Shown here: piece after piece, positions 19,585-55,755 of the stretch
Numbering within the stretch: the stretch's first letter is position 1
How the letters are laid out: each line of letters opens with the position of its first letter
Assembly: GCA_910574455.1 (NCBI GenBank)
Contig: CAJSYZ010000007.1
Span: forward strand, 310,001-374,000
DNA length: 64,000 nt
Reading direction: 5' to 3'
Origin: Trichaptum fuscoviolaceum
Lineage: Eukaryota > Basidiomycota > Agaricomycetes > Hymenochaetales > Trichaptaceae
The notes under the pieces: generated by a model
Told to the model about the DNA's origin: nothing
Databases searched by the model: none
The model's input: the letters and a program-made list of their open reading frames with translations, nothing else
Made by a program: the position numbers and the translations under genes

Positions 19585-19586
19585 TA

Positions 19587-19662
19587 CAGTCTTTCCCATA
19601 AACCTTGACCCCCCCCTCAAAATCGAAAGTTTTTTTTTGCGGGTCACGTGCGTCACGTGCAC
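19587..19662 (+). repeat. Left terminal inverted repeat of the giant transposon
   Basis: This 76-bp sequence is the exact reverse complement of 43617-43692, homopolymer lengths included (C8 and T9). It begins CAGTC directly after TA and ends GTGCAC. The two copies diverge immediately inside. Confidence 0.9.
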
Positions 19663-20271
19663 CGCCACGTATGCATCAGGGAATCTTCTTTTTCACTTAA
19701 GGTTACTTAAACGGTCTGAAATTTACTGAAGCCCTGGGAAGTGAAATTCTACTGATTTACTGATTTCAGGCATGTGGTTTCATTATTCAGGAAGGGGCCT
19801 GCTGAAATCAGTGCCGTCGACTTAAATCAGCTCTTCAGGCATTCAGTCTTCAGCATTCAAGCATATCAGAAGTTTTTTTCTGGCATTCGAATTGCAGTGC
19901 TCAAGTGTATAAGTGTGTAAGGGGTTCAAGTAGTTCATTCCATAAGTAATTCATCATTTAATCATATAAGCAGACTTTTTTGTCTGTCGGTTTGCAGTAC
20001 TCAAGCGTGTAAGTGCGTAAGAGGTTCCAGAATTACTTCATTTCCACAAGTAATTTAAGACAATAAGTAGAAATCAGTGCATCAGTGTCCCTCAGTAGCT
20101 ACACCACGGCATCCTGAACCAGATTATATTTTGCCACTTCTACCTCGCTGGCAGGCTGTTCCTCGGCATATTCAGAGAACGAATGCCACTGCAAGTTGGT
20201 GGTAGTAAGAGCTTGAATACAGTGGCGGGGTGATGGGTCAAAGCCGAAGCTCACCAGAGATCGACCTGCTC
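19663..20271. repeat. Left subterminal region with CTGAAAT/ATCAG motifs
   Basis: Non-coding. Short motifs recur in both orientations: CTGAAATCAG-like, TTTCAGG, TTCAGC, and paired phrases such as AAGTGTATAAGTGTGTAAG and AAGCGTGTAAGTGCGTAAG. The same motif set recurs near the right end at about 42950-43240. Such subterminal arrays bind transposase in CACTA-like elements; that role is inferred here. Confidence 0.55.
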
Positions 20272-23200
20272 TTAAAAGTCTGCGCCGTCCGTAGCCGAAT
20301 CCCATAATGAACCCTCGTCCTCGCGATCGCCTTCCCCGTCCTCTCTGCCTGCGTCATTCTCCTCGCCCTCAAAACCTCCACTGCGTCCATAACCCATGCT
20401 GAAATTCTCGTCCGCATCCTTGTTCTCATCCTGATCCTGATCCTTGTCCTCCTCCTGATCCTTGTCCTCGTCCTCGTCTCCCTCGCCAAGCACACTCTCG
20501 TCCTCCATATCGTCTTCCCTATCCTTGAAATCCTCGACTTCTTCGCCGTCATTATCCTTATCCTCCTTGCACTTACTACTTCTAGTAGCGCCCTCGCCAT
20601 ATGTATACTCGCCGCTCGCATCCACGTCTCCAACGTCAAGATACAGGGAGAAATCCCTGCCAGTGACACCCGATCCAACAAGTTCGGTGTTCTTTCCCGC
20701 ACTAAAATCTTCAATGGAATTGTAAGCTGCTAGGCGGGATCGGACCTTCTCCCAGTTTGATTCAGTAAAAAACGAGGAATTCGACAATAAGTTAACATAG
20801 TCGTCCGTATGAGGCTGCCACAGAGCACTGGTGAAGTACCACTCAGCGCCACCAAACTCTTCTTTGATCTTTTGCAACCGGGCCACCTGCTTGTCGATTG
20901 CAACCTTGACCTGTTCATGAGAAGTTCAGCGAATAAAGCCACTATAAGAACTGAAGTAGATAGATACCGCGGTTGCCGCAAGAGCGAGGGCACCGATAGG
21001 CTTTCCTATTGTGTTTTTGTCCAGTACTTTATGCCGACCCAGGGCCAAGACTAGGTGTACGGACAACACTGAGATTACGAGATCAGAGCAGAACAACCCT
21101 TGCTTCTGTACTTTCAGAGTCAATGCAGGGACACGAAGGGTGACATAGGGCAAATTTTCACATACCTTATCCATACTATGCCAGCGTTCCCAGAGGAATG
21201 GTTCAGCTTTCTTCTTGTCGACCATCGTCTGCAACATCTTCACAATTTCTTCGGTCTCCACCGACTTAGAACGCTCGTTGCCGACGAAACTCGAAATTGA
21301 TTGTTCGGCTTTCTCGAACAATTTCTTGCGCCAACTATCAGAGCATCTCTGGGCTGCCTACAGGGCAGATCATACTTGATTCAAAATGGCCGATGAAAGA
21401 CAATAAGGGATGACTCAACTAAAGAACAGATGTCGGCCAATTGCGTGTCGTAACTAAGTTCGACAGAATCAAACACCTTCCCCCACAAGGTTCCGATGGA
21501 CTTATTGTCCGGGTTTTGCCATGGAGTTGTGGACTTTCCAACTGCGCGATACAGTGAAGGCAGAAGAATGTGAGTCCAGCCTGCCTGAGTTCCGGGAGGG
21601 AGACACTGATTCGTTGCCCTTTTTTTGCCGGGAACGCGGGATCCCTCCCTTCCGATACTATTTCTATCCTTGTCTTCAAGCCCTACAGATGTCTGCATTT
21701 CTGCAAGTTAGTGGATGTATATCATAGACATGATTTGATTAACGCACAGAGCTAGTAGTCCGAGAGACTTTGCGATGACCATCATGAGCCTTGGTTGCGA
21801 GCACTTCGGGTTCAGGACTGATGGATACTGTCGTCATCGCAGGTGATTGTGCTCGTGGTGTTAGCGACACCTCACAACCACTTGCCTGTTAAAGGAGCCA
21901 TGAATTAGTACACGAATCAATTGCAGCAATTAGCTCACACTTGCAATATGTTGCGCATGAGCCGCCAGAGACCTCTTCAAATTGCGAATAGAAGTAGAAG
22001 ATTTTATCTGTAGCAATTAGAGGAATTGTTACCAAGAAAAGCTCGAAGAGAATTGAATACCAGTATATCAGCCTGAGAATGACTGTCTTGCAGTTTACTC
22101 TTGTTACTAGTAGTGAGGTTCAAATCCTTGTTGCTTAATCAGAAATGATATGAAATGGAGATTAGAAGGATTAACACTAACTGTCGAGGCAGCCTGTGAT
22201 GACGGCTTCTTCATATACACGTTCATGCTAGTCTGTTTTAGATAGTAAGGAAGTGATTTGAATATTGGGTGGAAATGCAAGAATTACCACGGCATGCGAG
22301 TTAGAGTCCGGCGGTGACTTCCTCTTCTTATTATTCGCGATCATGCTGTCCTACAATAAGCAAAGCTTAGTAGACGACCAGATCCTTGCCAAAGAAAGGG
22401 GTGCAGAAAGTTATCCTATTGAGTGTCGATGCCTACACATACCTGCATCTGCAGATACAACGCCGGCGATTGCTCTCTATGTCCATCGACAGTAATACCC
22501 TCCTGACGAGATGACAGGTGAGTAGTGAGGGGATAAAAGCAGAATAAACTTACCGTTACATCAAGCTGGGAGTTGGCGATTCTCTGCATTTTCGCGCCCT
22601 ATTCAGAGTACGGTTTGGTAAGTAATGAAGTAAAGATATGTCGACGCCGAAGGCCACAAGAAAGTCCGGCACCAGATCCATGCTTTGATGTGAAACACTC
22701 ACCTGAACGGCCGATTGTCTCCTGATATTCTTCTTCTCCAGAGCACAAAGAAGGAAGGATAAGTAGCGCGAACGAAGCAAGACATTATGATGCCACTTAC
22801 CAACGTTGTAGGAGCCTGCAACTCGGAGAGAGTGTCGCGGGATAGCTTCCTTTTCTTCGATTTATTGCTGGCTCCATCCTGATACGATACAGAAACATTG
22901 TTAATTAGCCATCGTTGTGCATGCGACTCCACCGATGCATAGTCCCTTGAACTTTAAGCGGCACTCACATTGGCTTGGGGCGGTATTGTAAGTCTCCTCG
23001 CGTCCTAATTAAACGCACAATCAAAATATTAAGATTTCATCTGCCAGTCTAATAAATGCTTTAACCAACTCACATTATCAGTGTCGGAGTCAACAAGATG
23101 TGCCGTCTGTCGCTCGCTCGCAAAGCTATTCTTTACACCTTGAAAACTCGTGAGGGTTACTGTCTCTCCTTCATCCTCCCAAGGACTAAAGTTTGCATCC

Positions 23201-23311: not shown

Positions 23312-23592
23312 TGATCTTGAAGAAGTGTGGCATGGCGGTGACCCGGGCCGCCACGGTCGCTGCCACTGGCAGTGTCACTGGCGCATGCGTGGCACGCTCA
23401 AACTGCCAGTGGCGGGCGCATTCAAGCTATCAGTACTAGTACTAGTAGTAGTAGTAAGTCGTACTACGATGATAAGCTTCAAGTAGCTGAGTTTAAATCA
23501 AGCTTCACACTCACTAGCAACTTGAATTTGTTTGAATTTGAAACTGATCTTTCGTACTATGATGCCAACGGTTGAGTAGTACGACTTCAAAC

Positions 23593-24604
23593 TCACAAGT
23601 CAATATCTTCTACTATCTTCCCTGCGATCTCAGGATTTCTGCCCTCTCCGCCGAAGAAAGTGGATCCATCTGTGTTGCGAAGTGCCCTGACAGGTCGCTT
23701 TGTCTTATCGTTCCGTTTCGACGTATTGGGCGAGTCTATCATGTCTGTATCCTCACCAGAAAGACTGCTGTCCTGTCCTGCAAGCGTACTATGACAGCCA
23801 GTGCCTCCTATGATACGACTTGAAGCCTTTGCGCCCTGCACGCGAGTACGGAAAGGAAGTGCACCTATGGTGTCCTTTTTCCTCGCCTTTTTTGCGCGCT
23901 CTCTATCTGGTCCATTGGAATTGGCTGCATCATAACGTGAGTCAATATGTTCATCTTTCAAAATCTAAAGTCGTAAAGGTAATGCAACTTACGAACATTC
24001 AACTTTGCGTTGCCTTCAGCTTCACAAAAGCTGTCTTTTTCCTCCGAGTCGTTCGTTGATCCTGCAATGCCAATATCTCGTAACTCGACTGTCGCTGTCT
24101 TGAAGATAAGGACTCACTAGCTTCAGGAGTGTCTTTCGGTTTTTTTAGCCCTCGTTTGTCAGTGCCAGCCAGCTTAGGTGCAGTTGAGCCCATCTGGGTG
24201 CGAATGTCAAGAGCCTTCGACAAATTCTTCTCAAGCTCCATCGTCTCCAGTATCGCTGTTTCCTGTTGCTCTGCTGCAGCTCTCTTTTTGCGTACCTTCT
24301 CAGATGCCTCTTGTTCTTTTGCTGCCCGTTTCTGTTCCGCATCAAGTTTTCTCTTCTCTCTCGCATCCGCGGCTTGTTGAGCCGCAGCTTCGCGCAGAGC
24401 TGCCCGTTCTTCCTTCTGTTTTTCCTTCTCCTCCTTTTCCCTCAATGCCTCACCACGCTTTGAGGCCTGCTCTTCTCTCCTTCTCTCCTTCTCTTCTTTC
24501 TCCCTCAATACCTCCTCTTTCGTTCGACGTGTTCTGAGTTTATTGACTATGGCTCCCGGGTGCTGATCGCTATTCTTAGCCCGCGTTTGTCTTCGAGTTG
24601 ACAT
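23593..24604 (-). CDS. Coiled-coil, lysine/glutamate-rich accessory protein
   Basis: Begins at ATG 24604 (MSTRRQTRAKNSDQHPG) and continues as a long heptad-like helix rich in Lys, Glu, Arg and Ala (KEEKERRREEQASKRGEALR). A short exon (LALQDQRTTRRKKTAFVKLK) and a last exon ending at 23593 (NPEIAGKIVEDIDL) follow, separated by two or three short introns; the exact joins are approximate. I recognise the style (basic STRRxTRA opening, long charged coiled coil) from hypothetical proteins that repeatedly neighbour Plavaka-type transposases in mushroom genomes. The function is unknown; DNA-binding or transposase-partner roles are speculation. It lies upstream of, and divergent from, the transposase. 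Confidence 0.55.
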
Positions 24605-24639
24605 TCTTGTGCAGTGTTTCAAGTCGAGGCACGCTGACA

Positions 24640-25239: not shown

Positions 25240-28200
25240 ATGCCGGTAACTCGGCGAAGGCCCAAACCCGTTCATCTTACAGATATCTTCCCCCCGACTA
25301 TTCAATGCACCTTCTCCTTCTGCAGCAGGAGGTTCAAGAATCAATCCGCAAGAACAAGACATGAATATTCAGCTCACCCATCATCATTTGCAACAAGACC
25401 TGCTGCTTGTGGTTACGACTCGGATTCCTCACCCAAGCGACCCGCACGACCTTCGACACCTCAAGCTCTTCCCGGCTCTCCTGAACTTCCAACAGACTTG
25501 GAGGGCCATCATGAAGATGAAAGCGGCTGCAACTCTTCAAGTTACGACTACGACATTTCTATACTCACACAGGATATCTCGATGCTTAGCATAGGCCGAG
25601 ACGAGCTGCTTCAAGATTTAGACGGTCCTGATTGCCTGCCCCATGCTGACACTGGAGATGACGAACTTGAAGACCAAGACCTATCTTCTGCTGATCCGGA
25701 CTCCGACATTGGAGATTATGAAGAGAACAATGATAACTTAAAGGTGTATCACAGATATTTAAATGGTGCGCGCTAAGTATGATGTCCCCGGTTTACTGTA
25801 GCATTCTGACACCAAATATCGTGCAGCCACTCCATGCGATGAAGAAGGGAACTTGTTAGAAAAGGAAGAACCGCCCGTTTTACGGAACGAACCTGCGTCA
25901 AATGACTGGTTTCCCTATTCGTGCCGAGCAGATTTCGAGCTCGCAGATTTTCTCTATCGCGAAGAGCAAATGTCTGCTGGCAACATAACAAAGCTTCTCG
26001 GAATTATGAAGGCTTATCAACTAATTCAGTCCACGGAGAACGCACAATCTGTTGAATTGGGCGCGACAGATCCCAACTTCGATGACTCAGATCTGGATAC
26101 AGCTGGTACACTGCTTGATGGAGATGCACAAAATTTGTACAAGATCATTGACACTACAAAAGTCGGTGATGTATCTTGGAAATCCTTCAGTAACTTCTAC
26201 ACTACCGACAAGGGCCAAAAAGCGTCAAATGAGAACATCGAGTCATGGAAGAGGAAAGAATATGATGTATGGTATCGGGATCCTTTGGAAGTGATCCGAA
26301 ATTTGGTGGATAATCCGGCTTTAGAAGGCGAATTTGACTTTGTCCCGTTTCGTGAATTTCAGACAAAGGAGGACACCGATAATATCAATGACAAAGAACG
26401 AGTTTTCAGAAATTACATGTCCGGGAATTTTGCTTGGGAACAGGCTGTAAGTCATGACTCATTAACTCGCACAGATACTTATTATCCTTGACTTAGAACA
26501 AGATCTATGCAGAAGATAAAGCAGTCCATGGATCTATGTTCGTCCCGGTCATCTTAGGGAGCGATAAGACAACGGTTTCTGTTGGAACTGGCAATAATGA
26601 ATACTATCCTTTGTATCTCTCGATTGGGAATGTATCAAACAAGGCCCGGCGGTCCCAGAAACTGAATACAGTCCAGCTCATAGCATTTCTGGCAATACCA
26701 AAGAGTATGTGTTAAGTGATCTATTTGATTGAGTTCTGATGCTTTGCAGCTGAGCGGCAATACGAAAAGTCAGATGACTTCCGGCGTTTTCGACATCTGA
26801 TTTTTCATTCGTCTATATCGAGGATCTTAAACTCGCTGAAAACCGCAATGATCATGAACACTCAGAAAACTATTCTCCGGTGCCCTGATGGTCACTTGCG
26901 TAGGTCAGTTTTCGGACTCGGCTCATATATAGCCGATTATCCGGAACAGGTCAGCCTTTGCGCCATATGCACTGGATGGTGCTGCAAGTAAGTCCTAGCT
27001 TTCCTGAAATCAAGCTCTGTTGCGATAACTTACTTTCGACATTATAGATGCACAGCGCCTCACAAGGACCTCGATAATCCGGAATTTGTATCAATTCCTC
27101 GAACAAAAGAGCTGCACGAACAATTGATAGAACAGGTAGACGTCAACAACATGAATAAAGCAACAATTCGGAAAGAGTACGGATTCCACCAGGACATTGT
27201 GGTACGTGCTTCAAATTATTCATTGGATGCGTATATTGCAGCTGATACGTTGCTCCGTAGCCTTTCACCAATGACATTCCGCGCGCAGATATATGCGATC
27301 TCATATCTCCGGACCTGCTGCACCAAATCATCAAAGGCGTGTTCAAGGATCATCTTGTCGAGTGGATATGTCAGAGCTTGACCACGTCAGAGCTGGACAT
27401 TGTGGATAAAAGGTGCTGTTTTTTTACAAGTTGTTTAATGTGAATACCGTTGCTAATCTCCGCGTAGAATCAGAGTTGCTGCTCCTTTTCCTGGACTTCG
27501 CAGATTCCCCGAAGGCCGAGGCTTCAAGCAATGGACAGGCAATGATTCTAAGGCACTTATGAAAGTATGTGACCTTTTTATCTTGTTCGAGGCAGTGGTT
27601 TGCTGATATTTGATGCAATTTGCTTAGGTATATCTTCCGGCTATCGTGGGCATTGCACACGATGATATGATTCGCACATTAAGTGCATTTCTAGACTTCT
27701 GTTACCTTGTGCGTCGGTACACGATTACAGCCTCAACTCTTGATCAAATCAAAGCCTCTTTGGATCACTTTCACCGTTATCGGCAAATATTCATAGCTAA
27801 GGGCATCCGGGATAACTTTTCACTACCACGACAGCATGCTATGGTCCATTATCCAACATTGATCCCTCTGTTCGCTGCACCGAGTGGACTGTGCTCATCG
27901 ATTAGAGAATAAGCATATTTATGCGGTCAAAGAAACATGGCGACGCTCGAACAGAAATGATCCCTTGGGCCAGATGATCACAGCAAATCAACGACTTAGT
28001 AAACTTATTGCATCGAGGTCAGACTTCGAACGGCGTGGAATGCTAGATGATACGCTATCTGAGGCTACGTGGAAAGTTTTGCGAGATGTTCTGCGGAAGA
28101 ATATGTCAGAGCCGGAGGAGGAGGATGCTGAGAGGATCCCGAACCAGAGGGAGCAGATGCAGTGTATTGGTATGCCAGTGGCAGGACTCGGAGCAGCCAA

Positions 28201-29282
28201 TGATACAGATAGTTTCTTCGATGGCATTATGGGTAATCAAGAGCACAACGAAATTGCTGACCTGGATGATTTCGGCAGTTCATCAGTGGGAGGACTGCAG
28301 AGTAGTGTGGTTCTTCATGATGTGGAAAATACAGAACATCGGTTCCGCTTGGGTGGTAGAAGCGACCCTTCAAGCTTAATATTAATGGCTTCAAAACAAC
28401 GTTAGTAACACGAGCTTGAAGTTGTGGCGCTGGACATCTGACTTCTTCGTTGTTATCCTTACAGAGTCCAGTAAGCTGTACCCCAAACAGCTCAATGCTC
28501 TTGTGACAATGAAAGGCCATCCGGAACTCCGGCGGCTCCGACAACTCATCAAAATATACTTATTCTGCAAGTACAAACGGTGCAACTTGAACGAATTAGG
28601 ATACTACGACCTCGGAAGTGCTTCTGACAGCCTGATAGAAGCCGAACAACACTTTGCACTGGACATGGGCAATGACATTGCCATCTTCCATTCAGCTACC
28701 GCGTATTTCGCCTACCGCGGCGAATCGATTCCTATAGAGCAAGCAATGAGGGAGGTGATCAGGTCCAATTCCTCTTGGCGCGGAAAACCACGACGTGATG
28801 TCGTTCTTGTCCAAGTTGATTCTCGCAAAAAGGGGTTTGCGGGCATGCAAATTGCTCGGGTTATGCTTCTTTTCTCCTTCACTGCCAACGGAGAACGGCA
28901 GGAATGCGCCCTCGTCCAGTTTTTCAAGAACATTGGAGACTCACCTGACAGAAAAACAAGAATGTGGATAGTCGAGCCAGAGTATGAGTCAGAGACCTCT
29001 ACCGCGTGCCAGCGTATTGGAAGTTGCCGTCAACTGAGTGACAATGACACCTCAGGCTCAGGCTACCACCGTCACGGTGACTCCAAAACTCCAAAGTTAT
29101 CCGTGATAGCTCTAGGGAGTATCTTCCGTTTAGCTCACCTCCTTGGGGTTCCAAAGGGTGATGAATGTCCTCCGAAGTCATTGACACCTGAGGAGTCCCT
29201 GGACTTTTACGATAGATTCTATGTTAACCGATTTGCTGACATGCACATGCATGAAACATTGTACGAAAGTAGACAACAATAA
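25240..29282 (+). CDS. Plavaka-type transposase, nine exons, one probable frameshift
   Basis: Exons: 25240-25765, 25827-26446, 26497-26704, 26750-26987, 27048-27201, 27261-27412, 27468-27564, 27628-28400 and 28465-29282; every join keeps frame. The N-terminus has a C2H2 finger (CTFSFCSRRFKNQSARTRH...H). Then come Plavaka hallmarks in order: NDWFPYSCRADFELADFLY, EYDVWYRDPLEVIRN, FVPVILGSDKTTVSV, YYPLYLSIGNV, the CPDGH and CAICTGWCCKCTAPH cysteine clusters, RADICDLISPDLLHQIIKG, and the C-terminal SVIALGSIFRLAHLLG and FYVNRFADMHMHE. It would catalyse cut-and-paste transposition of the surrounding unit. Near 27900 the frame passes from GLCSSI to ENKHIYAVKETWRRSN only if one base is dropped (or two restored), so this copy probably encodes a truncated protein; a sequencing error is the alternative. 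Confidence 0.88.
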
Positions 29283-29432
29283 AGATAAACCCTCATTTAG
29301 CACACAAAGTACCTTTAAGTTGAAACTTATGAAGTAAGGATATGACATTTAAATGTTCAACATTGTACGAAGCTAGACAATAATTACTAAGTTAAGCTGT
29401 ACTAGTATCATAGTATTGAGACTTACGTAGTA

Positions 29433-29918
29433 GGTGCGCTCGGTTCCAGTGCTTGCGAAGCAACGATAGCCTTATTTAGTCATCGATTCTTGAGATGCTC
29501 CGTGGGAATAGCTTAACAATTAAAAAAGGGTCTGTGAAACTGGGCTAGGACAGTCAATACTTTGCTGTGACCACTTCGGAGTCGGACATTCCATTTCCGG
29601 TATTTTCTGCTGCATATATGCAAACCTCTTGTCCATGGTTCCCCTTTGTTTTGCACGGAAATAAATACTATGTTAGCTCCTTAATGAGGCTGATTGTAAG
29701 AATAACAGCTTTAAACTGGCTGTTGCACGAATATTAGGAAGAGACTGATGTTCAAGCAAATCAAAGTAATGTAACATGTGTGACTATTATCTTGTAATCA
29801 GTAACCAAGCAGCTAGTACTAGTCGCTATTAGTACGAGAATGTCCGGACCACTTCCGGTTTTGTCCGGCGGTGCTTGAACGCGTCGTTGCGTCGCAAGCA
29901 CTGGAACCGAGCGCACCC
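29433..29918. mobile_element. Second MITE, inserted within the giant transposon
   Basis: A non-coding unit of about 485 bp with 34-bp inverted ends (29433-29466 and 29884-29917) that match at 33 of 34 positions, beginning GGTGCGCTCGGTTCCAG. TA precedes the left end (29431-29432); on the right TA follows one extra base (29919-29920), so one terminal base may have been lost on the left. No coding frame inside. The TA flank suggests a Tc1/mariner-like origin, but its termini are unrelated to those of the MITE at 8015. Confidence 0.75.
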
Positions 29919-30306
29919 TAAGTGTTTTTTTGGCTCGCATTCAAGTTGTACTACAGTTTACATTGCCAGAGCCAGTGGCAACCACATCATAGTATTCAAT
30001 GTTCAAGGTAATATTATTATCAACAAATCTCAAAGCGACATAAGAAAAAACTGAAAATGCAAGCATAGCGCAGAGACTCGGATTACAAGGGTACTCAAAG
30101 TCATAGGTTCACCTCGAAGTCCTCAGCGTTTCCCATGATATAAGTGCCTGGGAGTGGTTGGCTGACAACTTCACTCTGAAACCGCTTGACGGGGAGAACA
30201 GCTACTAGTAAATGCAGTGAGCGTATAATATGGAAATGAGGAGACTTTGTCACTTACAATTATTACTGATTGCTGTGTCCATTGTCAACCCGCCACCTTC
30301 GAAAAA
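29919..30306. other. Spacer within the giant transposon
   Basis: Non-coding as far as I can see. The right half should carry the 3' region of the small minus-strand gene that follows. Confidence 0.35.
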
Positions 30307-30625
30307 CTACTTCGGCTCGTCGCGGTGACCTTCAGGACTTGAAGGCTTGGAGTCATCCTTTGACTCTATCGCCAATTTCACATAATTGCGATACCCTAAG
30401 ACTTCACGAATATCAACGGGATTTTTGACGCCTTCCGGGACTTTTGCCTCGAATGCCGAGCACACCAACTCCGTCAGATAGCGTTGGTATCTCTGCATGT
30501 CATTGTCCTTCAAGTGGCGGAGCTTTGTATCCGATTTCTGTTCGACCTTGCCCTTGCCCTTGCCCTTGCCCTTGCCCTCGTGCTCGGGCTCGGGCTCGGC
30601 CTTATATGCCGCCATGCTCGCCATC
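30307..30625 (-). CDS. Small charged protein with Gly-Lys repeat
   Basis: A 105-residue frame on the minus strand (start MASMAAYKAEPEPEHEG) with a repeated Gly-Lys run, encoded by tandem CCCTTG on the plus strand at about 30548-30578. A globular-looking part (RYQRYLTELVCSAFEAKV, VLGYRNYVKLAIESK) and a polar tail follow. It could be the last exon of the larger gene just upstream (30805-32516) rather than a gene of its own. I do not recognise it. Confidence 0.4.
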
Positions 30626-30804
30626 TCCAACTTGTTATATTCTTCTAAACTTATCAATAGATTCAAGGACAGAATCAGTCATCTCCTCCCCTTGATGTAC
30701 GATCTTGTTTAAGAGGTCGTTTATGATGAACGCCTTTCGACCTCTGCATGACTAGATCGAAAAGACCCCTTCTGGAGACAACCTGCAACCATCTCCTGAC
30801 GATC

Positions 30805-32516
30805 CTAAGCCCATTTATTCAATCTCGTCTGAAGAACGCACAAATCGTCGATGCATTTATTAACCTCATCCACAAATTTTGGTGCAACTTCTAGTGGTAT
30901 GTTTCGATGTAGGTCCGATAGTAGGTTTTCCATCGTGTCGCGAACTTTGGGCGCCCTCGTCGAGACAACTTCATAGTCGGACGAAGTAACTTCATCCGCG
31001 TATTCCCTCCTGTCGTAGAAAGCGTCGTACCGATTGCACAGACCAATCGCCAGTTTCCAGCTTTTAGTTTTCGCACCCTTCGCATCCTTCTCAGCTGGTA
31101 AGTGTAGTAGCATTTCATTGGCAGCGGGTGTCTGGGGTGAAATATGAAAGAGTTCTGACCGCAGGCGTCGAATATTTCGCTTGCAAATTCCCTGATTTTG
31201 ATACCTGTGTGTAGAGTGCTTCCCATGAGAAGCGGATTTCGGTTCTGATCATAAGTCCATTAGCCGAAACTGAGATGGATTGGAGATGGTCTTCGATGGT
31301 TGCGATGAGATCGTAAAGGGCGTCGAAATGGGCCTGGAAGTACGGTAGGAAGATTCGGAAATCATGAAACCAGGGGTCCGACTTGGATGCCTGCAATACC
31401 TCAACACAGTCTTGCTTGAAATCTTCCGCAATACACATTACACCCGATTTGCGATAATTATGCATGCTGTAGTCTTTCGGAGGGGAGTGATCTCGTATGA
31501 CCACCCAGAGTTTCTTTGGCTCTATCTCGTGGAACTTGTAATTATAGGGTAGACTATTTGGGGCCGCGAGGGTGTCGAACACTTCATCTCTAGTGAACCA
31601 GATGACAATTGCGGAGGACTCCATGAAGAAGAACCTTAGACTGTCCAAGAGCTTCCTTACTCTAATAGCGTCGCCCGCTGGCCGTGACTAACAAGCGTAG
31701 GTTATTAGACGTTCTTTTTAGAAACATGATCTTATTACTTACCCCCGTAACATTTGCAGACAAGAGCTCGACCACTTCAGACATCTTTCCCAAAGCTGTG
31801 TTCAACGTTTGAATCTGCGCCTCAAAAGCAGTGCTCATCTGTGCAACCTGTTTCTCCAACTTCATAATCCTATCATCCCCTGAATGAGCTGGATGGTTTG
31901 AAGTCGAGCGAACCGACTGCATGTCATCTGTACCAGTGAGCAATGGGGAAGTAGCAGTGCTCGTCCTTGCAACATTTTCCTCCAAATTCGTAATCATACC
32001 AACCCCTGAATGAGCTGGATGGTTTGAAGTCGAGCGAACCGACTGGTTGTAATCTGTACCAGTGTGAACTGGAATTTCTATAGCTTCTGAAATACTTTTT
32101 GCAGTAACGACCAGGGAATCCAAAGTAGCCGGAGATTGGCTAATGCTCCTTTTTATTGTATGCCCAGGTCCTGCTCTCGTCCCATACGTTGACTCTGACA
32201 GTGATCGCGGTTGCACTGGTGAATCGCTGACAGTGTGCGAATGACTTCTTCCTTTACTTGTCACGTCAGTCGTCTTTGCCCTTTTTGCATCACGATAATC
32301 ATTGTCCGGCTCATTCGTGTTATGACGCTTAGTGCTCGGCTCCCCTGCCAGTGAATCCTCTGCTGAAGGCGGCTGTTAATTGGCTTTGTTTCCAGTCCGA
32401 GGTAAAACGAGCTCACTTTGGTTACTACTATTGTTGTAAGTACGTTTCCGATCTATGATTACTGTTCCCCGTCCCCGACTCGGATTCGATGCACTGGCAT
32501 TTGGTGACGTATACAT
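30805..32516 (-). CDS. Transposon-borne protein with coiled coil, unknown function
   Basis: Starts at ATG 32516 (MYTSPNASASNPSRGRG). A 53-bp intron follows (GTGAGC...TTCAG), then a Ser/Thr-rich exon with a KRH...AKRAK nuclear-signal-like patch and an internal duplication: QSVRSTSNHPAHSG occurs twice about 40 residues apart. A short heptad region (MKLEKQVAQMSTAFEAQIQ) ends at an intron (SANVTG). The next exon is the most protein-like, with MESSAIVIWFTRDEVFDTL and FEIEP-type hydrophobic patterning, and the C-terminus at 30805 ends LQTRLNKWA. Two later joins, around 31090-31230, are approximate. No domain is recognised. It faces the transposase convergently and is enclosed by the same inverted repeats, so it is probably element-encoded rather than host cargo. 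Confidence 0.5.
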
Positions 32517-33214
32517 TGTCTAAGTCTTCTCAGGCTGCTGATTGGGATTATCTACAATTTAGTTATTGTCAGAACCAACAAGGGGGCCCAACTTAAACGC
32601 AGGCTCACTGGATATTTCGAACAAAACTGTGACTTGAAGCCTGAGAGAAGGTTGTATTGCTTTCTCCAACAGCTTCAAGATGTAGTTAAAACTGGTGCTC
32701 AGGCTACTACTACTGGCGCGGCACCACCGACTCGGAGTCGGAACCGAATAGTATCAAGTTGAAGTTCGGTTCGAGTTTCAGAACCCTTTCAAGTTTAGAG
32801 ATCAAATTGCCAGTAGTATAGTAGTAGTACAGTACTACTCGGGCTACAAGTCTGAAGATCTCAGTCAGTGGATGAAGTTAAACTAGGAGACTGAAAGTTG
32901 ACTCACCGCCAGCCTGAGTACTGCCAGTGGCAGCCCCTGAGCTACTAGTAGAATTTAGGTGGCAGGGACTTCAACTACAAGGTGATCGGGCTTCAAGCTG
33001 CTGAAAAGAACAAGCTTGAGAGCTACTAGAGTGTAGACAATGACACGACACGTCGCTGGTCGCTGGCTTTCAAGTTGGCAACTCCTCGTCATTCAAGTTG
33101 ATGGGCATGGGGTAGTCAGGCTACTAAATGCGGAACTTGAATCTGAAGCCAAACTTCTCACGCCACTGCTGGTGCCAGCCTGAGGCTAGTACTCTCCGGC
33201 ACATGTTCTAACCC
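32517..33214. repeat. Short-motif-rich spacer
   Basis: Non-coding, with the same motif set as 24640-25239 (CAGTGGCAG, TACTAGTA, TTCAAGTT, ACTCGGAGTCGG), in both orientations. It may include the promoter of the minus-strand gene starting at 32516. Confidence 0.5.
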
Positions 33215-33868
33215 ATGCTGTTCCAACCTCGCGACGAGACATTCCTCAACAAACTCGGATATCTCGGACGGGCATGCTCTACAATCATCTTCATCTCAAG
33301 CAAGCATTGGAGGGTATGTGCTGATACGCATAGTTCAAGGTGGCCTTGCGGTAGAGCTCATCTTTCTTTCAACAAGCATATCCTCAATGTGGTTTGTCCT
33401 TCCGACCACAGTGATACCAATACCATCACTTGTTTCTTAGGAGGATCAACTTCTTCTCGTTTTTATCTCAGTCGACTCGCTGCTTCGAATAATCCTGCCT
33501 GTCTATGAAGATGGACTGCTATGGCACGAACCACCACGGAGGATTGCTGTAGGGAATGGACTGTGAGGACGCTTGGAGGAATTGAACCAAAGATAGCTTA
33601 CGTGCAGGATGCTATCACCATAGCTATGGGATTGAGCACGGGAGGTTACGTGAGAATAGAATCGGAGTTCATGATGATGGAATTTATGCAGGTCAGTGAC
33701 CTACCAAATAGATGTAGAGATCAGAACTCTAATTTTTGTATCGTTTCGCAGAGCAATGGAGCAAAACAGAATACAGGATGAACGACTGGTGTCCAGCACT
33801 TCTTCATATTCTCTCATCCATCGTAGAACATCCGAACGAGATTCTCTCATTCCATTCGCGTCTATCCC
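33215..33868 (+). other. Unassigned coding-like stretch next to the solo LTR
   Basis: Overlapping short plus-strand frames (YLGRACSTIIFISSKHW; GIEPKIAYVQDAITIAMGLS; DWCPALLHILSSIVEHP) look protein-like and may be exons of one gene, but I could not join them convincingly. A solo LTR interrupts the region immediately after. It may be an inactivated element gene. Confidence 0.25.
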
Positions 33869-33873
33869 TCAAC

Positions 33874-34448
33874 TGTCAGGAATCCGCCTCAGGTTATTTT
33901 ATTTCTTTTATTTTCTTTTATTTTCTTTTACGATCATACTCCGAGTCGGATCCCCGACATGACCGGTCCGAAACCGGACTTTCTTTGACTCCGATTCTCT
34001 TCCTTTTTGCGTAGGTTACTTGCCTGTATGTTTGCAGGCCGCTAGGACAAGCGCCCTGCAAGCAATTCTCTTTTCTTTCTTTCTTCCGCCACTCCGACTC
34101 GAACCTCCGCTCTACCGATGCGGGACCCCGACTAGAGCGGGACCCCGAACTCCGACTTACGTCAGCGGTATAGGTCGGACCTAGTCGGATCAGGGTCCAG
34201 TGGCTTGGTACTGTATAGTTTTTGCCTTTGTTCATCAAAACCGCGGATCCCCCTGCGAAGCACTCCACTTTTGGCCTCTTGTAAAGTGCTTCTCAGGTGA
34301 TGTGTTTATCTTTAGCTCTGATGTGTAGAATAGCTTAATTGACTTGTAAAGTGCTTCTCAGAGTGAGAACCACCGCTCATTGCGTCCGATCGTCGTCTGT
34401 GTCCGATTCAGGGTCTCGAAAGCGAAGGAACCACTCTAGGTCGTAACA
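33874..34448 (+). mobile_element. Solo LTR of the Gypsy family found at 49991-56330
   Basis: This 575-bp sequence runs TGTCAGG...GTAACA on the plus strand and is the reverse complement, with scattered changes, of the LTRs at 49991-50565 and 55756-56330. It has the same length as both. A perfect 5-bp duplication TCAAC flanks it (33869-33873 and 34449-34453). It is the product of LTR-LTR recombination after insertion into the giant transposon. It retains the ACTTTTGGCCT motif (34267-34277) proposed below as the self-primer. Confidence 0.93.
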
Positions 34449-34453
34449 TCAAC

Positions 34454-37400
34454 CGAGCGACATTAACAACCTCTTCTCATTATCTCGAGATTGTATCCTG
34501 CGATGTTGGTCTCCGAATAAAAGATGCCGGTCAGAGGTATCTTTTCCCCTTTAAATGGCAATAGAGAAGGGCCTTCGCTGTTACAGGGGCGTCCGCAAAA
34601 ACTTTTGCTGGCTCACGAGTAATCGGGCCAAACCGAAGACAACTACTCCGTCTTTGTCTTCGTCCCTTCAAGTTCCCTTACTTTAGGTACTTTAGGTGGC
34701 ACTTCTCATATTTATGAGTTCGCATCTGATCAATCATACTGGAATCACATCAACCTCTACCCCCCTAAAAGTGCGCATTGTAGATTACAAGAATTTCTTA
34801 CGGACGGGAGGCTATACGTTCTCTGTGAGAGGAAAGGAGAATCTGTGTGCGAAGTCGCTTATTTCGGTCCTGGTGTGGAAAGGCGTACTTGGACTCCCGC
34901 GGTCTGCGGTCTAACGGACAAACTGCATAGGAAACTTTTGGTGGGTTGCTGTTACAACCAGGCTCGTTAACAGAGAACTTCCTCAGGTTGTCTTACGTCC
35001 TGGTGTATTTTCTGTTTAACACTACGTTCTGCTCTCCAGGATTACATCTTGGCCCGCACCCTCCACTATTGATCGCATCCTATGCAATTATCGGAAAAAG
35101 GAACAGCCGCTGCCGTAGGATGTACAGTTGAGTTGACACGGGATCATCTTACACACTGGCACTGGCAGCCTAGGGCAGGAACCACCTTACAGACACACTT
35201 TATCCAATCATCCAAGATGAGTAAAGCTCTATAAATCGTTGATGGCCTCAAGTGACTTTTCAGTAGCGAACTGACGTAGTCATGGCCTCCTCCTCAACTA
35301 CCACTGTATCCCAACGCCCAAGTCACCGCAGATTCTCTTCTTCACTTTTCTACCAATTTTCAACATCGAATTCCTCCTGCACGTCCCGATTCTCTCTCAA
35401 CACCATGCGGGACCTTGTACAACTCTGATAGACCTCTTTCTTCCGCCGCGCATCTGCCGACTCGCGCTTTGCCTGTCTCGGCACGCTCAAATTGTTCTAT
35501 CGGTTTCAACGCCTCGCGCAGCTCGCGTAAAACGTCTCTAGGCTCGTATGGAAACCAAGGGGGTAGGAGTTCGACCGCTTTTGCAGAGGAACGAAACCAC
35601 TGCCGTCTACGCAATTTACTGCGCCCACAGCAGGCGCCCCAATTCTTGAACCCAGGATTCTCTCGCAGATTTATGCCGACGCGTATTCCCCCACCGACTA
35701 AAGCAATGGCGAGCACACATGCGCACGCGTCCACCTCCACAGTTGACAACACAAACTTCTTCAGCGATTTGTGATGGTAGAGTGGTTACATCCGTCACCA
35801 TATATCATGAGTGAACCTTCTCCGAGGGACAGGGCTATGCCAGAGAGCTCATCGTCAGTGGTGGCTGATGACCAGCTCAGAGAGCAGGACGTTAAAACTG
35901 GTTGCTGCACTTGCATCCGAGGTCCGCTCCTCCCAGGTTTTGAATCGCGAGACGCATCACCGACGTTTCGGATGTGCAAAGAGGCAAGTTACTGAACCGG
36001 CCCTCACAGGCACGAGGAGAGGATGTATGCGTGCAGTAATCAGTGAGCGAAAGCTACTACTGTACTTCTCGAGTAAGCTGTTCTTTTAATTTTTGAATCA
36101 TAATACTCACGGGCTTCTTCAGCTTTGGAGCATCGGCACGGGGAATGTCTATACGTTCTCCGAGAACATCTGCATAAGATTTACGCCGAAAATTATAGTC
36201 TTCTTTTCTTGGGGTGGGGGTAGGGGGATTGGACACATCCGTTCGCGTATGGAATCTGCAAATGGGTATGATTTTCTTCACATTCCTGTATCCCCGACTC
36301 ATCAGTGACAACTTTCCAGTACGACTCCGACTTTCTTGTCACCGGAAGGAACGATGGCCGTGTCAGCTTCTTCTCGTTCCATCATTCCTCTTTTCCTCGA
36401 CCATCTCAAGCTCAACAATAAGCGGCCACAGGACTCGCGCTGAGCAGTCAGTCGGGATGAGTCTCTATCCCTACCGTCTACTCTCACTTCAGGAATCCCT
36501 GCTCAATCGACATCTACAGTCATTGACCATTCCTTTAAACACCACCAGTCCTTTAAACACCATATATTCTCTGCTCTCTACATATCAAGCTCACCACTTT
36601 TATCTCGGTTTATCTATGCTATAGTACATCTCTAGCTCTCGAGAAAATTTCAGGCCGATTGCTGCAGTAATTAATGAGATATGAAGAAAATGATGTTGGC
36701 TTCGTGAAACTTTTGAATTACTAAAATAGTCATCAAACTCGAGAAAATACTGTTAGGTCCGTGCAACCATGTATATGCATGTTCTACCTGTCTATAAAAT
36801 ACTTATGACCATCTTTTATCCGATTCTGCAAGAAAAATGGAGATCTCTGCTATTTTGCTTGCAGTAGAAGCAAAGATTCTTTTTGTTGTACTTTTCGTAC
36901 GAAAATCCTATGCTTCCCAATTCGGCAACTGCATCTCAACAGGGTACTGTTGGTGCTCTGCCGCATCTTCTTCATATCGGATCAGAATAAAACTTAGCAT
37001 ACATAGTGATATAAGGCATACTTACAATCCTAGCAGGTTAATTTGATACGACTACAATTTTAACTCTATGAAACTAGCAAAGGGGAGGTACTTCACCCCG
37101 TGGGAAAATAGGTGTTTAAAGGAATAGGAGGGCCCGAGAGTGGCCAAAACTTTACTTGTACATTTACCATAGAATGGTTGCTGTAATGAGTACAGAAACG
37201 TAGATAGCAATTCTTACAGTGCTATTCTAAGCCTATATGCGAAAAAAATCAATGAAATTGATGGTGAATTGATGAAAATAATGTTGCAAAAATCGGAGTT
37301 TAAAGGAATGGTCAATGACTGTAAGCCTAAGTTCGCCTGGCCTGAGCGGCGTAAAGAGCCCAAAAACATGGGAAGGATGCTGGACAGCGACACTCTCTCA

Positions 37401-38220: not shown

Positions 38221-39262
38221 ATGTTCTCAAATCTTCGTACTATCCTTCTCATCCTCCTCTCCCTTGATTACGCACGCCTGCACCTCAGCACCGTCCTCCG
38301 CTTTCAGCTCGTTCAACGGTGGACAGCAAGGGCTCAAACGAAGGTACTTGTTTCATTCATATCAAGATCTGTACACTGACTTGTTGCTAGATACACAAGA
38401 AACTGCAAACGTTTCTTGATCTTCTCGGGGTACCACCAACACCTCTCTCCGAATTACATCAATATAGGCTCCATAATATAGTTCCGATACAGTGTCGCAC
38501 GGGCTTGGATGTGGACAATGCAGTGACTGCAATATATGCTTCATTGCCACAGGTACCAGCTAGGAGATTTGTCTCGATCGACATCGAGTGGGCAAGTGGC
38601 GGAGAAGGGCCCAATCATCGCGTGGACCTCATCCAACTCGCAGTTCAACACCACATTTATCTAGTCAGGACGCATACTCTTACTGACCTTCCCCCTACGT
38701 TGGCGCAACTCCTTGGAGATGGTACAGTCATGAAAATTTCCGCAGGAATCAACGGTATGAATAACTTATCTTTTCTCCTGCGAGGTGGCCTAACAGAAGA
38801 AATGGCAGGTGACGCAGTGCGTATAAAGCGCAAGTTTCGCACCTCTGTGCGCTCCTGTGTCGATCTGACAGATTGGGCGCGCGTTGTCTACCCGGAAGTC
38901 TGGCCCAAAAACCCGACCTGGTCCCAACTGCTCTTAAACCCTCGTCTCTGGTTCCAGCATCCGACTCCGACTGTCAAGCTCGAAAAAATAGTGGGAGAAG
39001 TATTGAGGCTGAACGTCAAGAAGAGTAGTGAGGTCACAATGAGTGACTGGGCAGCTGACGAGCTATCAGCGGCACAAAAAGAGTGTAAGTTATCATTCTG
39101 TTGTTCAAGATCAACCATCTTCAAGTTCTCACTTGCATGATCTGCTGTACTGGAATACTAGATGCAGCTATTGACGTTCACAGCACGTTTGCTGTAGCTT
39201 TGGCCCTGAGCCAAAGCCACTCACCCTTACCGGATAAGTACATCAAGAACTTCGAGGCTTGA
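38221..39262 (+). CDS. DnaQ/WRN-like 3'-5' exonuclease, transposon-borne
   Basis: Three exons (38221-38343, 38391-39084, 39162-39262) join in frame to 305 residues. The exonuclease fold starts near residue 110: motif I is RFVSIDIEW (the Asp-x-Glu pair), followed by RVDLIQLAVQHHIYLV. Motif III is completed across the last intron (KEYAAIDVHSTFAVAL, the Tyr-x3-Asp signature). In the motif II position the sequence reads KISAGINGMNNLSFLL, where an Asp is expected after the Gly-x-Asn; an Asn replaces it. The enzyme may therefore be weak or non-catalytic. The family trims DNA or RNA 3' ends. The N-terminus (MFSNLRTILLILLSLDYA) is hydrophobic, unusual for this family, and the start may be mis-set. 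It lies inside the giant transposon, in the same orientation as the transposase. Confidence 0.75.
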
Positions 39263-40770
39263 TCTAGTAGGCTGAGGCCCACCAGTAGCAGGTTTGACCA
39301 AATGTGCTTGAGTTATCGAGTAAATTGTTGTGCGCATGCTCTTGTCTTTCAAAGTTGCCAGGAGATTCATGATTAAAATTTATTATTGAATTGCCTTTTT
39401 TTCCCGAATGATCACCGTAGTCTGAGGTATCAAAGTGGTTTGGAAGATGTCGCCAATGGTGTCTGTCTGCTGTTCGGATTGCTTGCCATGATGATGCTTC
39501 CAGTGGTGAACGAGCTTTAAATCTAAAATTGGAACTTGAAGAGTTCAAGTTGCCACCGTGACTCGCACTTGAACTTGAACTTGAACTTGAACTTTTTACC
39601 ACTGCGTCCCCTCAACGACACAGTGTACGTTCTCCAGTCTTGTTATGAGCACTTCTCCGCCATCCCCCACCCATTCCATAAGACCACTTATTGGCCTGAA
39701 CAAGTTATGTTTTATCCTACCCTCAAGCTTGTATTGAACTCGCCTAGACTTCAACATTTCCGAATGAACCAAAAAACGATAGTGTACGTCTGAGAACGTG
39801 CTTCTTGCTTGATCTTATCACTCACATTTGTCTTTAGTACCTGGAAGGAGAAGGTGGGCGGCCTTGTTATAGTGAGAGGAGCTCCGACGTGCACGCTGAA
39901 GCGAGCATCTTCTACCTTTCGAACGACACCCGCTGAGGATAGGCCGATACATGTTGCATCACCAATTGTTGTAATCTTCATCAAAAATAAGTAACAATCC
40001 TTCGTCTTCAACTAGAGTCGACACCGCCTTATAGGAAAGGAAGGGCAAGGGCCGTCCGCTGACGATTGAAGAGGTGGCAGAGGACGCTATTGATGAGGGG
40101 GCAGATGAACTACACGACCGATCCCGCGCCAGCCTTGCGCATGTGTCCTTGGATGCCCCTCGCTTCACATATCAGTTTCCTGCGCCGAAACCGCCATTGC
40201 AACGTAGTAAATCTCGCGTCCGTCAATTGCAGGCTGACGGCCCCGGCCCCGGCCTCGGAACACCACCTCATACCGTCTTGCGAGACACCTTCATACCTCT
40301 AGTTGAATGTGATACACCTCCGATAGTGAAAAACGCAATGAAGCGAGGCGAACATCCTTCCATGAAACAGCTGCCAGCATCTCCCGGCCAATCTCTAGCA
40401 AGTCTCCGGAAGGTAGCGTGAACCTAGGCGCTACATCTAGTTCACACAAGCATCGGACTACGGTGGCGAACATCTATGAGGGCATGCGAGGGAAGAGAAT
40501 AAGCGCAACCTTTGAAGCCTCTGGAACTATAAGTACGGACTTCTCTTCTTGCTATTATATTACTAGGCTTATACTGGTTTATTCATCAGCGAAACCACAT
40601 GCGTCTATTTCGGATACTTTGCTCTTCAAACATATCATATCAACACAGATCTAACCGAAGCTAAATGTGTTAGACAATTATTGATCTGGACAACTTCGCG
40701 GGGCGATGGAGCTCGAGACTGTGACTACTAGTACAGCAAATGGGCGGTCAACCTATGCTGCGCTTTTGTC
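39263..40770 (+). other. Unassigned plus-strand exons between exonuclease and kinase remnant
   Basis: Three protein-like stretches: about 39590-39780 (NDTVYVLQSCYEHFSAIPHP, TYWPEQVMFYPTLKLVL), 39838-39990 (EKVGGLVIVRGAPTCTLKRA) and 40074-40421 (DAPRFTYQFPAPKPPLQRSK). They read as exons of one gene on the same strand, with introns near 39785 and 40000, but the phases did not all close. No domain is recognised. Confidence 0.3.
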
Positions 40771-42490
40771 TTGGAGAGAATTGTCTCACTTTTTCTTTGA
40801 CGCAGTTGAACTTTCAAGTGCGTACCATTGTTGTCGCGACTACGACCGTCGCTCGTGGCGACTTGACGCAGGAGATCGTGGGCGTGTCTGTTCAGGGTGA
40901 TATTCTGGACTTGGCCATCAATGGCATGGTTGACCAGCTGGCTCTCTTCACTGCGGGGGTGACCAAAGTCGCGCGGGAAGTCAGAACGAAAAAACTCGGT
41001 GTTCAAGCTGAAATCGAGAATGTTCATGTCACAGCAAAAAATCACGTATGTTTATTTCACTAGCATTCCGCTGAGTTGTGTAGTGTGGTTTTTACTGAAC
41101 GCACTCCGAATAGAATGGCTGTTGACACCATGGCCGGAAACTTGACGACCGAAGTGCGTGGTTTCGCGCAGATCAGTACTGCAGCTATAAACGGCGACTT
41201 CACGTGTTTCATCACCGTCAAAGGCTCAGGCGAGATGGAATCCTTTGAGACTCATCAAATCAATTAAATTGTGCACTACTTGCGCGAGTCGATTTAGAAG
41301 AACGCCGCCGCTCGTGAAGCTGCCGAACTTGCCAGTCGCTCCAAGTTGGAGTTCTTGGCGAACACGTCTCATGAGATTCGACCCCTATGAACGGTATCAT
41401 TGGCATGAAAGAGTTTACGCTGGATAGCAATTTGAATAAGAGTCAGCGCGAGAGTCTTCTGCTGGTGCATAGTTTGGCTCGGAGTCTGCTATTGATTAAT
41501 GTCGATATTTTGGATATCTCGAAGAGTAAGCTAATCCGCCGCCGATGCTTCCAAATTCAGTTGCTAATATTTCGATTAATTACTACATTCGAAGCAGGCA
41601 GGATGACGATAGAGCAAGTTTGGTATTCACTGAGACACACGGTTTTTGGTAACCTCAAGACTCTCGTTGTACGACCATCGCAAAACAACCTCGACCTCAC
41701 ATATGACGTTTACCCAGACATTCCTGATCAGCTCATCGGTTACTCGCTGCATCTGCGCCAGGTCATTACGAACATTGTCGGCAACGCTATCAAGTTCACC
41801 TCGAGCAAGGTCGTGCGGAACGGACATGCTGCGCTGTCGTGCCGTCTGGTTGGCATCAAGGACTCGATGGTGAAGGTAGAGTTCTGTCTCACGGATACGG
41901 TATCGGTATTACGAAAGGTACAGTGAACTTGATCTGTGGTACGTTCGTGCGAGGGGATGGACAACCACTCGAGTGAGCTCTTCTCGAATAGTCATTTGTT
42001 CCGGCCTGTAGTGGTCTTACTTTCTTAAATCTAGGACTATGGTGGTGCTGTCCTTGGTCAATCAGTATCGAAGTGAGTTGTGTCGCTGATGAATAAGACG
42101 ATGTGAGTTGAGAGCGAGCTGGGCAAGGGAAGTTCACGACCACCTCCTAAATCAGCCAGTTGTCCACCGAGAACGTACTTTCGATGATCCAGGCATTCGC
42201 GAAGCAGAAAATCCGGCTTGCCAATACGCTGGACGACCGAACAGGTGTAGTGATGCGTATCACAGAGCTTATTCTGAAGCCTTACGACGTGAGCGAAGTT
42301 GCAGATAATGAGTGTTGCCTACATATCGATGGGATACTTGTTGATTCGCTGACGGCCGTAAGTCATCTTGTTAAAGTGCATTCAAGCTACAGTATAAAGC
42401 CTTACTCAAACACTTTTCGGATGATCCAGAAGGAACAAACCAGGAGTATGAACACTTGCGATATATACCGATCGTTCTGGCGTCAGACCA
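40771..42490 (+). pseudogene. Decayed fragment of a Nik1/Os-1-type hybrid histidine kinase
   Basis: Pieces follow the order of group III (Nik1/Os-1) kinases, the HAMP-repeat osmosensors and phenylpyrrole targets of fungi. They are HAMP segments (VATTTVARGDLTQEIVGVSV, KLGVQAEIENV), [16 protein letters not shown], the dimerisation/H-box (TSHEIR then, one frame over, NGIIGMKEFTLDSN), SQRESLLLVHSLARSLLLI, DIPDQLIG and VITNIVGNAIKF. A receiver-proximal part follows at 42160-42490 (TELILKPYDVSEVADNE, QEYEHLRYIPIVLA). The catalytic N-box is partly kept, but the G-boxes are missing or scrambled. Frameshifts occur near 41385 and after 41925. Ancestral introns are still present (for example the GTAAGC donor at about 41525), so it was captured as genomic DNA, not from mRNA. 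The upstream two-thirds of the gene are absent. Confidence 0.82.
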
Positions 42491-43616
42491 AAATTCCCTA
42501 TTGAACAAACAACTGCCAGACCGAGATCTACCCCCACTTCCCATCGGAGGCAATCTGCTTCTCAAGGATGTAGAAGCAGAGCTAGATCGATAGGTTGCGG
42601 TGACGAGAATTGACACGAGCGGCTACGGCGGACCATTCAAGGTGGAGGGTAATTCAAGAACATGGACCTTGAGGGAAAATGATCAGAACGTGCGCAATCG
42701 GACAAGAGAGAAATTGCTTTCGGAACAGATTGAAAATAGTATGTCCGAGTCCTCCGAAAACCCGTAGTAAGAACTCTGGAATTTATGTTTGACAATTGTT
42801 TCAGGCGTCAGGAAGAAGATGCCACTTGGGCGGAAGTCGGACAATTCTCGAATCGCTCAAGGCAAATGTGCTTGAGTCGCTCAGCCAACAACGAAAAGCA
42901 TGAACATCCTTATCAGCGAAGGCGAGAGGAAAGCAGCGCGCAGCCTACAATACTGGCGTACTGAATTACTGGTGTACTGATTTGTACTTACTATGACATT
43001 TGAATTGTACATGCTTGTACTTAGTCTTTACTTATGCTTGACTGACCTCCTGATGTACTGACGTACCGAGTGTGTCCTGAAAATTGGCTTATTTCAGTGT
43101 GTTCAGGCCATCAGTTGATTTCAGACAGGCATAGCAACATATCAGTAGATTTCAGACACGCATAGCAACCCTTCAGTCCATTTAAGGCAGCGTCAGGACG
43201 CGTCAGTCGCCTTAAGCAAAAAGTAGTTTCCCTGATGTGCGTGTTCAAGTTGACGAGCGCGCACTCGTTCAGCACTTCATGCACACTGGCGATACAATGT
43301 CGCTGACATTCTATTTCATTTCTAACATAATACAGCATCATATTATTGATGACCTAGATGTAATAACAATGCTTTGCATAAAAAATGTTTTTTTTCTCAT
43401 TTTTGAGTAAAATGTGTAAATTTTTGAGCAAAAAATCGAGAGAAGTGACTACAATCTATTTATAGCTTATTCTAACAAGAAATGAAAGCAACTTTCAACG
43501 GAAAATATCAGCAAACCTATCTACCAAAGCCCCAACTTTGTGGTGCGCAAAGGTCTGAACTCGTGTGCAACTCATCTTGCGCGCAACTTGAACGTTTCAG
43601 GCACTGGCAGGTGCGC
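42491..43616. repeat. Right subterminal region of the giant transposon
   Basis: Mostly non-coding. From about 42950 to 43240 it is dense in ATTTCAG, CATCAG, TTCAG and TACTGA motifs, including two near-identical phrases (GATTTCAGACAGGCATAGCAA and its variant about 30 bp on). These mirror the left subterminal zone. An AT-rich segment (43360-43480) precedes the terminal repeat. Confidence 0.55.
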
Positions 43617-43692
43617 GTGCACGTGACGCACGTGACCCGCAAAAAAAAACTTTCGATTTTGAGGGGGGGGTCAAGGTTTATGGGAAAGACTG
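43617..43692 (-). repeat. Right terminal inverted repeat of the giant transposon
   Basis: Exact reverse complement of 19587-19662 over 76 bp, ending GACTG directly before TA (43693-43694). Confidence 0.9.
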
Positions 43693-43694
43693 TA

Positions 43695-55753: not shown

Positions 55754-55755
55754 AA

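Follow-up and report, generated by a model that had tools for sequence, protein, structure and literature searches.

Nested insertions around a giant Plavaka-type transposon explain a 24.1-kb stretch between perfect 76-bp inverted repeats in Trichaptum fuscoviolaceum

Does a pair of perfect inverted repeats facing each other across 24 kb of DNA delimit a single mobile unit? This question is raised by a 64,000-nucleotide stretch of Trichaptum fuscoviolaceum (C7:310001-374000, hereafter the window), which was analysed together with the 59.1 Mb of the genome, searched in 12 contigs. Positions 19583-19662 and 43617-43696 of the window are complementary as inverted repeats at 80/80 positions, or at 76/76 without the abutting ATTA and TAAT, and a TA abuts each of them (19585-19586 and 43693-43694), as an earlier sequence-only reading had correctly recorded. 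Chance cannot account for an inverted-repeat match of such length. That reading went on to treat the whole 24.1 kb as one DNA transposon; we are nearly certain instead that nested insertions explain the window, namely a ~540-bp miniature inverted-repeat transposable element (MITE), then a giant Plavaka-type transposon within it, then two small elements within the giant. The long perfect repeats around 24 kb did not delimit the mobile unit, and correction of this tempting misreading reveals an underlying unit, a high-copy giant Plavaka family, that is of more interest than the original finding.

A genome search with the 76-bp end returned 29 matches, consisting of the window pair, a pair on C2 lying 24.9 kb apart, one single end and 12 inward-facing pairs, 11 of which span 522-545 bp and the last of which (L009) has been lengthened to 2,744 bp by an insert. 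In 13/13 tabulated units and in the C2 unit, the left flank is TTA and the right flank TAA (TAG in one case), which amounts to a TA duplication within a TTAA-like target site; L011 and L012, whose flanks are the same, count as one insertion that was duplicated. The unit that carries the 76-bp ends is short, has inverted ends, duplicates TA and occurs in several copies. Its short length, its long inverted repeats starting with CAG and its TA duplication liken it to TA-duplicating MITEs, and we presume it to be Tc1/mariner- or pogo-like. No autonomous partner was recognised among the 29 end matches, and no search aimed at transposase families was made. In window-type MITEs, the first 87 bp of the 24.1-kb unit are joined to its final ~444 bp; uninterrupted copies (L010-L017) pass from the left 87 bp, after a few bases, into the sequence from 43249 onward, and the limits common to window-type MITEs in the border alignment fall at 19671-19674 and 43249. 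In the window, the MITE is represented by a left part of 87 bp (19587..19673, + strand, including the terminal inverted repeat 19587-19662) and a right part of 453 bp (43240..43692, + strand, including the terminal inverted repeat 43617-43692), with the two copies of its TA target duplication outside them. Because each MITE equals the left end joined to the right end, these units were first taken for internal-deletion derivatives of a 24.1-kb unit, a candidate that was dropped when the interior proved to be multicopy with other borders. One copy, L009, holds an insert of ~2.2 kb with inverted ends (L009:930-3140), in which our own gene finder detected no clear gene and which has no match to the giant copies E and F described below, to the C2 stretch or to the window.

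The interior of the 24.1 kb has borders of its own. The giant, a Plavaka-type DNA transposon separate from the MITE that surrounds it, extends over 19674-43237 (23,564 bp, + strand) with ends CATCAGGGAA...TTTCCCTGATG; it was set at these positions on the basis of its end sequences, CATCAGGGAATC... at the left terminus and ...AGTTTCCCTGATG at the right, and it carries short CATCAGGG ends. TG stands on both sides, as the left (19672..19673) and right (43238..43239) copies of a target duplication. The limits common to other giant copies in the border alignment are 19672 and 43237-43239, and the MITE is absent from those copies. Identical 2-bp sequences were found on both sides in 21/23 end pairs, the window included (binomial P 2e-17, assuming a chance rate of 1/8). 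At the 20 printed sites (the 21 without the window), C or G precedes the duplicated pair in 19/20, and the pair itself begins with T in 16/20; at the window insertion site an A precedes the TG duplication. The terminal inverted repeats and the short target duplication by which Plavaka elements are recognised are hence both present, and the two sets of borders and the two duplications are direct observations. In the flanks, CACTGGCA/TGCCAGTG was counted 10 times in 4.4 kb around 20 giant insertions versus 7 times in 39.7 kb of window sequence that does not belong to the element, and may mark preferred target regions.

These borders bear directly on the proposal of a single 24.1-kb element with 76-bp inverted repeats and a TA duplication, from which the MITEs would descend by internal deletion. 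MITEs do contain both ends of the 24.1-kb unit, and the second unit of 24.9 kb on C2 likewise lies between such ends; nevertheless, we give this proposal almost no credence, as copies of the interior have their limits at 19674 and 43237, where they are flanked by other sequence and by 2-bp duplications, the two giants between 76-bp-type ends differ in the multicopy family to which their interior belongs, and MITE sequence runs on across the junction. With ends and duplications paired in the other copies, a single-element origin is already refuted, and the interior does not travel with the 76-bp ends, its other copies having their own. The sequence-only reading had itself allowed that each 76-bp sequence might be the end of a separate smaller element, and in substance this is what was found: the 76-bp/TA ends are those of the ~540-bp MITE, which is whole at other loci, and other giants lack them. 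The search it had proposed with the 76-bp end did yield shorter units sharing the ends, and the only second large pair, that on C2, encloses an interior of a different family. A giant Plavaka transposon carrying a kinase-like fragment is thus retained from that reading, without the borders, terminal repeats and target duplication ascribed to it. Its argument for a young element has to be transferred, since the 76-bp ends belong to the MITE and their identity speaks for the age of the MITE and not for that of the giant.

Several points weigh against nested insertion as the explanation. The 2-bp repeat is lacking in 2/23 end pairs, with spans of 45 kb (which may be mispaired) and 27.9 kb, and two more sets fell outside the duplication test, as L084/L085 gave no left end and L083 no partner. 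The end pairs were, moreover, a non-random sample taken from copies with matchable ends, and transposition itself was not observed. Finally, the window junction differs from other MITEs by one base and ~6 bp beyond the TG, so that the empty site of the window is not letter-perfect, whereas that of the C2 case is.

An independent second case is that on C2 (C2:5686044-5710942), where a cousin of the MITE (L018-L020) with ends CAGCCTGTAA... has a giant inside it, with 24.9 kb between the MITE ends. When this giant is removed between its TT duplication, what remains is identical, over the printed bases, to L018 and L019, two MITEs without interruption. Its core is 71-80% identical to that of the window giant in aligned pieces, and a 3.4-kb piece of it was found at at least 39 other loci at 91-100% identity (40/474 candidates scored). 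Two MITEs are therefore interrupted by two different giants, in each case 84-87 bp from one end of the MITE, and both giants (at 19673 in the window, and in the C2 case as seen in L022-L024) are just inside the inverted repeat. The MITE DNA found amounts to ~7 kb of 59 Mb, for which ~450 insertions would give about 0.05 expected MITE hits, and two were seen; this excess over expectation may reflect either targeting or chance. The non-core part of the C2 giant holds other predicted genes, among them three related open reading frames (ORFs), which presumably have GDSG-like motifs, and a 571-amino-acid gene; no Pfam match above cut-off was obtained for the two of these three ORFs and the 571-amino-acid gene that were scanned. 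A composite that can still be mobilised, in which a transposase acting on the 76-bp ends would move the MITE together with its 23.6-kb passenger, would agree with the complete and identical state of both 76-bp ends in the window; it is considered very improbable, as only two large units were found among the 29 end matches and their interiors belong to different families.

Nested insertion also agrees with the abundance of the giant elsewhere, for which the interior (query 29300-43250) was found in pieces at 99-100% identity in other parts of the genome. From 41500 onward there are at least 39 other copies, 37 of which stop within 43237-43241, one at ~43258 and one at ~43142. The segment 29300-33300 has at least 8 other whole copies (97-100%), at least 2 more that cover >95% of it and also diverged relatives; 24700-29500 has at least 11 other whole copies at 99-100%, besides partial ones and others at 92-97%; and for 19700-24700 the other copies form two sets, at about 99-100% and 98%. 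The common right end and differing left extents had prompted a reading of the right part as a Helitron, which was dropped once left ends, inverted ends and 2-bp duplications had been found. With no more than 2 mismatches allowed, a 29-mer from the left end gave 92 matches, among them 80 exact ones, and a 25-mer from the right end gave 453 matches, 70 of them exact; the reversed-pattern control gave 0 in both cases. When exact ends were paired if they shared a strand and lay no more than 80 kb apart, a procedure that shorter units with variant ends would escape, 62 units were obtained, with 0 below 20 kb, 33 at 20-30 kb and 29 at 30-76 kb, and these include two of 22,180 bp and 17 of 25,336-25,371 bp. 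The multicopy status and the near-uniform length of many whole copies are likewise observed directly. Units >30 kb probably hold nested insertions, and several of them keep matching 2-bp flanks.

The length distribution has to be weighed against a further possibility, that of a Plavaka element of ordinary, small size that was enlarged when unrelated elements nested in it. The two small later insertions in the window copy would fit this, as would the 29/62 paired copies of >30 kb, probably lengthened through nesting. We nonetheless regard it as quite unlikely, since no exact-end paired unit is <20 kb (with the proviso for variant ends given above), 17 agree in length within 35 bp, and diverged families repeatedly have transposase, gene D and exonuclease (described below) in proximity and on one strand, although all three lie within the set limits at 7/19 D-like loci at most. 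A giant Plavaka element that entered the MITE remains the preferred account, with the following sequence of events. First, the non-coding MITE of ~540 bp, with its 76-bp terminal inverted repeats, entered a TTAA-like site, duplicating TA; next, the 23.6-kb Plavaka element entered the MITE 87 bp in, duplicating TG; and later the two small elements entered the giant.

The Plavaka transposase gene lies at 25240..29282 (+ strand) and has 9 exons in the model from copy F, a sister copy of 25,337 bp (C8:2168605-2193941) in which a transposase model of 1,206 amino acids is open. The domain PF18759 was matched on one window exon (E 5.1e-24, 85.5 bits versus a cut-off of 26.3) and on a spliced sister-copy model (E 3.9e-115, 385 bits, positions 4-325 of 325), which bears out the Plavaka transposase claimed by the sequence-only reading; the N-terminus is presumably C2H2-like. 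The frameshift suspected in this copy is also real, as the exonic 2-bp gap of the window gene is absent from six sister copies, and the other changes of frame would fit introns. The gene models were made with a splice finder on sequence alone, which bridges short insertions or deletions by false introns; this affects the model of the sister copy E (its domain match and its substitution ratios) and the transposase model of the window. In a 4.25-kb comparison of seven transposase copies, comprising the window and six others (L035 and L042, which are in pieces, were left out), each copy has at least one private 1-2-bp insertion or deletion, and of 30 substitutions private to one copy, 22 change C to T or G to A, as deamination of methylated DNA would be expected to do. 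The window giant is 99.64-99.71% identical to one sister copy compared as a whole and 99.48-99.67% identical to the six copies over 4.25 kb, and it is on this near-identity, not on the identity of the 76-bp ends, that the giant looks young. Genome-wide, at least 165 matches to the Plavaka domain were counted, some of them pieces of one gene (123/834 candidates scored), so that Plavaka elements, in several families, are very abundant in this genome.

Besides the transposase, the giant carries two companion genes whose approximate limits are 20272..21697 (gene A, - strand; sister-copy models of 412 and 491 amino acids) and 23593..24606 (gene B, - strand; a 316-amino-acid sister-copy model). Pfam matches of gene A (vRNAP_dom, DUF6532) were all below cut-off, and the sister-copy model of gene B had no Pfam match. 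Ratios of nonsynonymous to synonymous substitution (dN/dS, Nei-Gojobori) were calculated with codons only from stretches with at least half identical residues, so that the values are biased downwards. Between copy F and the C2 lineage they were 0.13 for A, 0.22 for B and 0.17 for the first part of the transposase, to which the C2 model (620 amino acids) is limited; for copy E (22,180 bp) against copy F they were 0.13 for A and 0.24 for the transposase, and, on few changes, 0.21 for the exonuclease and 0.88 for B. These values place the transposase, A and B in a conserved core under purifying selection.

A 3'-5' exonuclease-like gene at 38391..39140 (+ strand) is a recurrent companion of Plavaka matches. 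The exonuclease noted earlier inside the element is present as a match, a weak one to PF01612 (E 5e-4) that is under the Pfam cut-off, and no PDB sequence was matched at 1e-3. For its ORF, 153 matches were counted, of which some are fragments of a single gene, and among the first 57 (window included; 99-100% identity over at least 238/249 residues) 56 are without internal stop. At 22/27 loci of an exonuclease set at 59% identity and at 20/25 loci of a set at 91-93%, the 40 kb upstream contain a Plavaka match on the same strand, compared with 1 locus in the mirrored opposite-strand control in each case. DNA resembling gene D lies downstream of a Plavaka match within 15 kb on the same strand at 17/19 diverged loci (mirrored control 0), and at least 7/19 D-like loci are followed, no more than 15 kb away, by an exonuclease from the 59% set. 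These counts draw on 115 of the 165 Plavaka matches, weaker or unlisted ones being left out, and leave out exonuclease matches of other identities as well as the majority of short pieces. That the exonuclease is random cargo was rejected on account of its recurrence beside Plavaka matches in diverged families. The kinase fragment reported earlier is confirmed at 41375..41926 (+ strand): HisKA and HATPase_c matches are below the Pfam cut-off, PDB histidine kinases are matched down to E 2.9e-14, and the part from 41500 is included in the at least 39 other copies mentioned above.

Between these blocks lies an exchangeable middle block at approximately 29360..34950 (borders converted from copy E), in place of which copy F has another block. 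It contains gene D (approximately 30390..32520, - strand), whose 671-amino-acid sister-copy model has no Pfam match. When one copy of each of two lineages, E and F, was compared, the two were alike over 9.6 kb on the left (three pieces, at 93-97%) and over 7.5 kb on the right (97.5% with gaps counted, 98.5-99.8% per 500-bp bin with gaps aside). In the middle, F has 8.2 kb with predicted genes of 563 (- strand) and 908 (+ strand) amino acids, and gene D occupies part of the 5.0 kb that E has there. The two middles have nothing in common by blastn at 1e-10, apart from 109 bp that match E elsewhere, and a tblastn search with gene D gave no match in F. Since the right block of E and F is more alike than the left block, the comparison points to mosaic descent.

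Plavaka transposons, defined in Pfam by PF18759, are placed as EnSpm/CMC-like and their transposase is of the DDE type. The giants described here are like them in the whole Plavaka domain of the transposase model, the short inverted ends and the short target duplication, and differ in the unit length of 22.2-25.4 kb, the companions A, B and exonuclease, and the variable middle block. In terms of mechanism, the Plavaka transposase would cut at the CATCAGGG ends and integrate, frequently at S-T-R sites, with a stagger of 2 bp; transposition may be assisted by A, B and the exonuclease; middle blocks could be exchanged by recombination between co-resident families; and the kinase fragment would be host-derived cargo. 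It is tentatively proposed, with more doubt than confidence, that such elements constitute a class of giant multi-gene cut-and-paste Plavaka transposons, with a transposase, two companions and a dedicated 3'-5' exonuclease, in which central cargo is traded between families and the backbone stays fixed. If true, this class would be a eukaryotic DNA-transposon counterpart of modular cargo carriers. Starships, the giant transposons of ascomycetes with a DUF3435 tyrosine recombinase as captain, are similar in their size of tens of kb and their variable cargo between conserved parts, and differ in that the giant has inverted ends and a Plavaka transposase; no DUF3435 tyrosine recombinase was found in 20/27 window ORFs of at least 120 amino acids (E up to 0.1) or in ten sister- or related-copy models (E up to 0.01). 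How the transposase mobilises 25 kb, what role the exonuclease has, and how cargo, including the host-like kinase fragment, swaps and spreads can now be tested.

The two later insertions within the giant, both of which are absent from sister copy E, are a MITE of ~575 bp (33874..34448) and an element of ~805 bp (36517..37321) with 29-bp inverted CAGTCATTGACC ends and a TA duplication. One repeat of ~576 bp occurs three times in the window, 98-99% alike, at 33873-34449 (inside the giant), 49991-50565 and 55755-56331. Tandem arrays with units of 21 bp and 36 bp occupy 56428-56990. On either side of the whole insertion, a stretch of 45 nucleotides is 87% identical (18898-18942 and 45564-45608), perhaps as part of paralogous genes.

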